From a virus, in IMG/VR virus record IMGVR_UViG_3300025828_000240, positions 1-21,085 of that record: a stretch of 21,085 bases of DNA, one strand, 5' to 3'. Each line of letters starts with the position of its first letter. Positions within the stretch are counted from its first letter, which is position 1. This document shows positions 252 through 521 of this stretch, in pieces. The notes under the pieces were generated by a model, which was not told the DNA's origin, made no database searches, and worked only from the letters and a program-made list of their open reading frames with translations. A program made the position numbers and the translations under genes.

Positions 252-279
252 ATTAAAAGAAGTAACTGTTTCTTTTAAT
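252..279 (+). other. AT-rich hairpin downstream of psbA
   Basis: A perfect 10-bp inverted repeat (252-261 with 270-279, core TTAAAAGAA/TTCTTTTAA) has an 8-base loop and starts 22 bases after the psbA stop. No T-run follows, and the stem is almost all A/T, so it is a weak candidate for a terminator. It may instead mark the 3' end of the psbA message or stabilise it. The structure is seen; the role is inferred. Confidence 0.4.
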
Positions 280-288
280 TAATTCGTA

Positions 289-338
289 CGTTCAACCTTC
301 GGGTCGCATGTTACCTAGTCATGGAACGGGGGCTAGGT
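289..338 (+). promoter_or_regulatory. Downstream-peptide / glutamine-II riboswitch-like pseudoknot
   Basis: Three pairings can be read directly. P1 is CGTTC 289-293 with GAACG 324-328. A small UUCG-capped hairpin inside it is ACC 295-297 with GGT 302-304. P3 is ACCTAG 313-318 with CTAGGT 333-338, extendable by a G-U and a C-G pair. P3 crosses P1, so the fold is an H-type pseudoknot. The invariant-looking strings CGTTCA and CGCATGT sit where, from memory, the cyanobacterial Downstream-peptide RNA (later shown to be a glutamine-II riboswitch) carries its conserved bases. That class lies directly upstream of very short reading frames in marine cyanobacteria and their phages, and a 33-codon frame starts 17 bases after P3 here. 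The 3' strand of P3 includes an AGG that could act in ribosome binding, so ligand-stabilised P3 would reduce translation. Pairings are seen; ligand and class are inferred. Confidence 0.68.
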
Positions 339-354
339 TTATTTTGTACGAACT

Positions 355-456
355 ATGTCTATCAATCTTATTCGTTTCCTTGATAATCAGCGTCGTCGTG
401 CTGAGCGTTATCGTGTTGATACGCTCCGCTATCGCGGTGTTGAATACAAGAAGTAA
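355..456 (+). CDS. Small basic YRGVEY peptide (33 aa) under the putative riboswitch
   Basis: ATG 355-357 to TAA 454-456 encodes 33 residues beginning MSINLIRFLDN. A run of arginines lies mid-peptide, and the end is LRYRGVEYKK. The (T/R)YRGVxY string is the signature I associate with the short peptides found downstream of Downstream-peptide RNAs and with the cyanobacterial DUF4278 family; the function of both is unknown to me. The peptide is strongly basic with no membrane segment. No good Shine-Dalgarno lies at normal spacing; the nearest AGG (335-337) is 17 bases upstream and inside the pseudoknot. A longer overlapping frame from 308 runs straight through the RNA structures and is not credible. 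The real evidence is the conserved-looking end and the position behind the RNA element. The product could bind nucleic acid, but that is a guess. Confidence 0.65.
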   Translation: MSINLIRFLDNQRRRAERYRVDTLRYRGVEYKK

Positions 457-516
457 TCTGGTGACTTGTGCGTGCTTAACGCACACTGGGAGGGGTTCGA
501 TTCCCCTCCTTACTTA
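451..516 (+). ncRNA. tRNA-like, D-armless structure or tRNA remnant
   Basis: Three stems can be read. A closing stem is AAGTAA 451-456 with TTACTT 510-515. A 6-bp hairpin 467-472/480-485 has a 7-base loop (TGCTTAA). A 7-bp hairpin 489-495/503-509 has the loop TTCGATT, which is the canonical T-arm loop, preceded by G and followed by C. The arrangement mimics acceptor stem, anticodon arm and T-arm, but only about ten bases lie where a D-arm should be. The loop position before the would-be anticodon is G instead of the invariant U. No CCA follows. It is therefore not an ordinary tRNA gene. It may be a decayed tRNA, a tRNA-like processing signal between the psbA-peptide and capsid messages, or a chance resemblance. 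The closing stem uses the stop codon of the 33-aa frame. Confidence 0.45.
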
Positions 517-521
517 TTGGT

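Follow-up and report, generated by a model that had tools for sequence, protein, structure and literature searches.

A predicted glutamine-II riboswitch precedes a short YRG-motif gene upstream of the capsid gene in T7-like cyanophages

Glutamine-II riboswitches (RF01704, formerly Downstream-peptide) are known from Prochlorococcus and marine Synechococcus (PMC2864571, PMC6698751, PMC6316151). L-glutamine is bound selectively, with a Kd of 190 μM for the RNA used in calorimetry, and C1, G18, C39 and G40 contact the ligand in the crystal structure (PMC6698751). They were reported as ON switches, the expression of the host element rising with glutamine (PMC6698751, PMC6316151). In picocyanobacteria these type 2 glutamine riboswitches precede DUF4278 genes, whose products resemble IF17, a glutamine synthetase inactivating factor, in its N-terminal part; the DUF4278 part of IF17 is reportedly dispensable for glutamine synthetase inhibition (PMC6316151). 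Phage glutamine riboswitches were reported for T4-like cyanophages, OM43 phage Melnitz, Pelagibacter phage Mosig and Prochlorococcus phage AG-345-P14, and the Melnitz riboswitch was said to resemble glnA and to be linked with a tmRNA gene (PMC9964418, PMC9602691, PMC9004378). All of these reports concern T4-like or related myophages, whereas the cassette analysed here lies in a T7-like cyanophage.

The window, i.e. the whole analysed stretch of 21,085 nt, is a viral record from IMG/VR (IMGVR_UViG_3300025828_000240). An earlier note on this DNA had proposed a nitrogen-sensing riboswitch of the Downstream-peptide (glutamine-II) type between psbA and the capsid gene. The features of the locus, including a predicted helix (P0) and a structured leader RNA (R1) described below, are as follows.

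3-230, + strand: 3' end of psbA (photosystem II D1), upstream neighbour (phrog_182, E 3.8e-29)
283-290, + strand: predicted P0 5' strand, UUCGUACG, pairing with 345-352 and overlapping pocket letters C1 and G2 (ligand-free fold, pair probabilities, permutation)
286-338, + strand: glutamine-II aptamer (RF01704, 50 bits, E 1.2e-9)
289-293, + strand: pseudoknot helix PK, 5' strand CGUUC, partner 324-328 (RF01704 match; PMC6698751)
295-304, + strand: P1 hairpin with UUCG loop (RF01704 match, pair probabilities; P1 covaries)
305-308, + strand: linking strand CGCA, equal to C17, G18, C19 and A20 of the crystal structure (numbering of PMC6698751)
313-320, + strand: P2 5' strand, partner 331-338 (7 of 8 pairs changed on both sides)
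324-328, + strand: PK 3' strand GAACG, partner 289-293 (RF01704 match, pocket check)
331-338, + strand: P2 3' strand, partner 313-320 (covariation)
345-352, + strand: predicted P0 3' strand, UGUACGAA, the ribosome-binding stretch directly before the start codon (pairing, permutation, fold)
355-456, + strand: microprotein gene, MSINLIRFLDNQRRRAERYRVDTLRYRGVEYKK, with one DUF4278-type YRGxxY repeat (conserved frame, motif, pN/pS)
489-572, + strand: R1, unclassified structured leader RNA of the capsid gene, between the microprotein and capsid genes (covariation, occurrence)
633-1766, + strand: major capsid protein gene, downstream neighbour (phrog_267 / phrog_27239)

For identification of the element, Rfam covariance models were used. 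Positions 286-338 (+) were matched end to end by RF01704 with 50.0 bits at a curated cut-off of 33, corresponding to E 1.2e-9 for the whole 21-kb window and 5.9e-11 for a 1-kb stretch; a chance pseudoknot is ruled out by this score. This was the sole Rfam match above curated cut-off in the window, the aptamer occurs as a single copy in the whole record, and RF01739 (Glutamine-I, glnA) gave no match above cut-off anywhere in the window. The anatomy given in the earlier note was recovered at exact coordinates: a pseudoknot (289-293:324-328, CGUUC/GAACG) crossed by 313-320:331-338, a UUCG-capped hairpin inside the element (295-304), and the strings CGTTCA (289-294) and CGCATGT (305-311). P2 is formed by ACCUAGUC/GGCUAGGU, with eight pairs, one of them G-U. 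When compared with the crystal structure (numbering of PMC6698751), 18 of 18 checked pocket and pseudoknot positions carried the same letters, and the conserved pocket letters C1, G2, G18, C19, A33, C39, G40, G41 and G42 were all present. The natural P1 of the window has the same UUCG loop as the crystallised RNA, in which this loop was engineered. From its score, pocket letters, covarying helices (below) and site before a short gene, the element is assigned to the glutamine-II riboswitches, as the earlier note had suggested.

Among 19 database phage records sampled, 14 carried one aptamer copy above cut-off upstream of the capsid gene, including P-SSP7, P-SSP2, P-GSP1, 9515-10a, NATL1A-7, S-RIP1, S-RIP2, S-TIP37, S-CBP1 and S-CBP4. 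SS120-1 also has a glutamine-II aptamer; none was found in S-CBP2, S-CBP42, Syn5 and P60. In the P-SSP7 record, both the riboswitch and a 17-residue peptide gene are unannotated. For covariation analysis, 32 distinct phage aptamers were aligned, in which 99.4% of pair cells were standard pairs. The covariation score was 0.432, compared with 0.122 for shuffled and at most 0.073 for slid alignments (best at slide 0), and 70 double changes were observed in P1 and P2 versus 16.6 in shuffles. In P2, both sides had changed in 7 of 8 pairs; P1 covaries as well. The covariation among relatives that the earlier note had asked for is therefore present. The pseudoknot was invariant in the same sample, and a compensating pseudoknot change was seen in SS120-1 (L262, ~830-885; 38.9 bits), where C5:G36 is replaced by U:A (CGUUU/AAACG for CGUUC/GAACG). 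In S-SBP1 (L003, 734-944), the P1 loop of the aptamer houses a 54-codon gene, whose ATG and TAG lie in the P1 strands UCUAUG/CAUAGA; all other parts of the aptamer are intact.

A pattern scan of viral contigs yielded at least 120 aptamer-containing stretches. A short frame with a YRG motif followed the aptamer in 114 of them, and since the other six end 22-101 nt past the aptamer, the two are in effect always associated. When loci were sampled independently, by capsid protein, the canonical aptamer was recognised by pattern in 36 of 56 loci, and eight more had the YRG frame without a pattern match. Judged from these samples, most T7-like cyanophages have the predicted cassette of riboswitch and microprotein gene upstream of the capsid gene, whether psbA is present or not.

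In the window, the 33-codon ATG frame (355-456) begins at the 17th base past the aptamer, as previously noted, so that 16 nt separate P2 from ATG 355; relatives show the same arrangement. A longer overlapping frame (308-547, 79 codons) starts within the aptamer and was set aside, since relatives conserve the peptide of the 355 frame instead. The core of the window peptide is YRGVEY. The 99 distinct phage peptides are mostly about 12-42 residues long, and each has a single YRGxxY repeat; in all complete phage relatives the microprotein terminates with this core. Five residues past the Tyr of YRG, a second Tyr (+5) was invariant among the peptides, though not a selection criterion, position -2 was always Leu, Tyr or Phe, and the net charge was positive (median +5). 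Among relatives, pN/pS was 0.49 in the YRG frame versus 1.04 and 1.06 in the other two frames, values which are indicative only because the pairs are non-independent.

Behind the same riboswitch, Prochlorococcus and Synechococcus encode 55-57-residue proteins with three LxYR(G/R)xxY repeats, which were assigned to DUF4278 by Pfam PF14105 (E 2.6e-11 and 5.1e-8; 33.6-44.2 bits). Peptides of phage relatives scored 18.3-22.9 bits on PF14105, below the cut-off of 25.3, and the window peptide matched no Pfam model, PF14105 included. For DUF4278, no solved structure was recognisable (best match E 1.2). The phage peptide shares with DUF4278 and the N-terminal part of IF17 the LxYRGxxY core, the richness in Arg and Lys and the position behind a glutamine riboswitch (PMC6316151), but has one repeat only. 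It appears to be a one-repeat derivative of the DUF4278 family, as judged from motif, context and sub-threshold profile matches, which do not amount to formal membership. The tiny peptide of the earlier note was hence retained as a conserved 33-codon frame and refined to one repeat of a host family found behind the same riboswitch.

For analysis of the expression platform, pairing between the aptamer 5' flank and the spacer before the start codon was examined. In the window, the predicted helix P0 had pair probabilities of 0.73-1.0 and included C289 and G290, the pocket letters C1 and G2. Folding of 280-360 without ligand gave a minimum structure that contained P0 and lacked P2, and whose hairpins are incompatible with P2. 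Over 118 distinct canonical phage loci, own flank-spacer pairing was -7.01 kcal/mol versus -5.88 kcal/mol when swapped (z -6.3; 0 of 2000 permutations), and in 27 non-redundant loci z was -3.8. In the same permutation test, the control pairs (flank with frame interior, far-upstream stretch with spacer, flank with reversed spacer) gave no signal. For the canonical class the signal lies in the group; taken singly, only 20 of 118 loci were within the best 5% of swaps. A P0-like helix was also present in 25 of 25 loci of a variant aptamer class (see below; z -8.1). Helices of unlike sequence (AGUAGACUCCAG/CUGGAGUCUACU, UGUUAGUCUUCU/AGGAGACUGACU and GGUAAUCUCC/GGAGAUUAUC) each bury a Shine-Dalgarno-like GGAG. 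This conserved complementarity between aptamer 5' flank and putative ribosome-binding stretch is new here and is supported by permutation.

Because P0 uses C1 and G2 and the ligand-free fold excludes P2, P0 may represent the off-state, which the glutamine-stabilised pseudoknot would open. Given the ON behaviour reported for glutamine-II switches (PMC6698751), synthesis of the peptide is expected at high glutamine levels. We consider it quite probable that the element acts on translation, as a glutamine-II riboswitch by which a T7-like cyanophage turns on the 33-residue microprotein at plentiful glutamine. In the absence of glutamine, the RNA would form P0 (283-290:345-352) together with hairpins that are not part of the aptamer; nucleotides 3-10 upstream of AUG355 would be paired and translation low. 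Binding of glutamine and Mg2+ would draw C289 and G290 into the pseudoknot, the stacked P1-PK-P2 rod would form, and P0 would be shortened and strained, so that ribosomes could start. The peptide may then engage the host partner of DUF4278 proteins, possibly glutamine synthetase or regulators, in such a way that nitrogen assimilation suits phage production. The model agrees with the reported ON behaviour of glutamine-II (PMC6698751), its opening step being a proposal. RNAfold, which is blind to pseudoknots, still left six base pairs of P0 in place after the pseudoknot bases had been set aside, so that opening by glutamine may be incomplete. In one locus (L037), a long P0 ends several bases before C1 and does not compete directly with the pseudoknot.

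Between the microprotein and capsid genes, the stems of R1 covaried (0.417 versus 0.128 in shuffles), and no Rfam family matched R1 above cut-off. An alternative fold from RNAalifold (CCGU/ACGG hairpin plus columns 65-67:87-89) was rejected, as its covariation did not exceed that of shuffles, whereas that of the fold with stems B, C and D did. R1 was present in 19 of 20 cyanopodovirus records, from which the model had partly been built, and in 56 of 56 loci of the capsid-protein-drawn sample. It was found in none of 39 host loci and was absent from S-TIP28 and five more distant cyanophages. S-B28, S-SRP01 and DSL-LC07, in which no riboswitch was found, retain R1, whose function is probably separate from that of the riboswitch. 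The first hairpin of R1 resembles a tRNA T-arm. In NATL1A-7 (L020, 1538-1666), a tRNA-Gly gene lies directly upstream of the capsid gene with its T-arm overlapping this hairpin, which suggests that the hairpin derives from or mimics a tRNA T-arm. Positions 451-517 (+) of the window show a tRNA-like arrangement that lacks a D-arm, with AAGTAA...TTACTT ends, a GTGCG-TGCTTAA-CGCAC hairpin and a T-arm-like hairpin. A tRNA or tmRNA at this site was rejected: ARAGORN reported 0 genes, and Rfam matched only a 17-nt T-arm fragment of tmRNA (14.4 bits at a cut-off of 47). R1 is a candidate for a new RNA family attached to the capsid gene.

As stated in the earlier note, the window element lies between the 3' end of psbA (phrog_182) and the major head protein gene (phrog_267/27239); no sigma-70-type promoter was found near it. 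An AU-rich 11-bp hairpin at 252-279 (+), between psbA and the riboswitch, may act in processing or stability of the psbA message. Across loci, the aptamer is separated from the capsid gene by ~230 to >1500 nt, with other genes inserted in places (gp222 in 9515-10a and NATL1A-7). psbA is adjacent, up to ~1.8 kb away, or absent (S-RIP1, S-TIP28, MedDCM-S28-C3, SS120-1). Because the YRG frame is always close behind the aptamer while the capsid and psbA distances vary, riboswitch and microprotein gene are taken as the cassette and psbA as a frequent but dispensable neighbour. The earlier placement of the sensor beside psbA holds for the window but not for all relatives, and both psbA and the capsid gene are disfavoured as the main control target by the psbA-less loci and the variable capsid distance.

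Control of the capsid gene and late operon by message processing, attenuation or translational coupling, with the short frame as leader only, would fit an aptamer that always precedes the capsid gene within the late region, with the structured leader R1 and one terminator-like hairpin (488-510) intervening. We regard this as improbable, given that the distance to the capsid gene is far less constant than that to the YRG frame, that R1 is kept in phages in which the riboswitch was not found, and that changes in the peptide are constrained in its frame only. Slightly less probable still is a regulatory upstream frame, of which the act of translation rather than the product would matter: some frames have only 12-17 codons, yet the YRGxxY core stays unchanged in otherwise very dissimilar sequences, silent changes prevail, and the hosts have a recognised protein family behind the same switch. 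An action on psbA, as a 3' UTR element for stability or processing of its message, is very improbable. psbA often ends 12-15 nt before the aptamer in relatives and the AU-rich hairpin at 252-279 is present in the window, but the element occurs without psbA upstream in the four phages named above, genes intervene elsewhere, and P0 targets the downstream start site. Equally remote is a decayed, host-derived riboswitch that has lost glutamine sensing: some relatives have lost or altered the riboswitch, but the pocket letters are all intact and compensating changes maintain the element over many divergent phages.

The aptamer upstream of the microprotein gene has a variant form, found in 44 of 46 viral pattern matches (L266-L311) and in the isolate S-CBP3 (L012, 463-511). 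It has the glutamine-II topology with a covarying downstream P2, but Glutamine-I core letters (GACGG and GGAACGC), and the ligand-adjacent C19:G41 pair is changed to G:C. In ten sources scanned, it remained below the cut-offs of both RF01704 and RF01739. Like the canonical class, the variant sits before YRG microproteins. It is a possible link between the two glutamine riboswitch classes. Near a variant-aptamer cassette on a viral contig (L285, 7624-7850, - strand), a group I intron was found (83 bits).

Compared with the host glutamine-II elements, the phage copies share the aptamer letters, the P1-PK-P2 topology and the position just ahead of the start codon in a small gene of DUF4278 type. 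They differ in lying in the late region before the capsid gene, in encoding a single YRGxxY repeat instead of three in 55-57 residues, and in the P0 pairing between 5' flank and spacer, in place of which an upstream GUAGC-GCUAC hairpin is seen in host copies. This host hairpin (GUAGC-NNNN-GCUAC, L141-L260) has varying loop letters and is followed by a T-/A-rich stretch directly before the aptamer. Glutamine-I (glnA, RF01739) shares ligand class and the core letters CGUUCA...GGAACG with the window element, which forms a pseudoknot with downstream P2, whereas a three-way junction was described for Glutamine-I. The kind of riboswitch is already known, and Rfam may already list some of these phage sequences. 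For the T7-like cyanophage cassette with its one-repeat YRG microprotein, and for P0, no published description was found in a literature search outside which the founding 2011/2018 aptamer papers (PMC3127080, PMC6212724) and supplements fell.

Taken together, T7-like cyanophages probably read host nitrogen status during infection. A more far-reaching reading, which is tentative and on balance doubtful, is that these phages carry a nitrogen-status cassette of their own. It would combine a glutamine-II or hybrid aptamer, a rewritable anti-ribosome P0 and a one-repeat DUF4278 mimic that modulates glutamine synthetase or nitrogen signalling of the host in a dominant manner, and the hybrid would record the conversion of one glutamine riboswitch class into the other. 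With P0, glutamine-II switches gain a concrete candidate for their expression platform. No smaller natural form of DUF4278 than the phage peptide was seen here, and this peptide would reduce the question of host-protein function to one testable repeat. Nitrogen limits much of the ocean's primary production, and cyanopodoviruses are among the best studied marine viruses. A conserved glutamine sensor in these phages would mean that phage gene expression is wired directly to the nitrogen status of the host.
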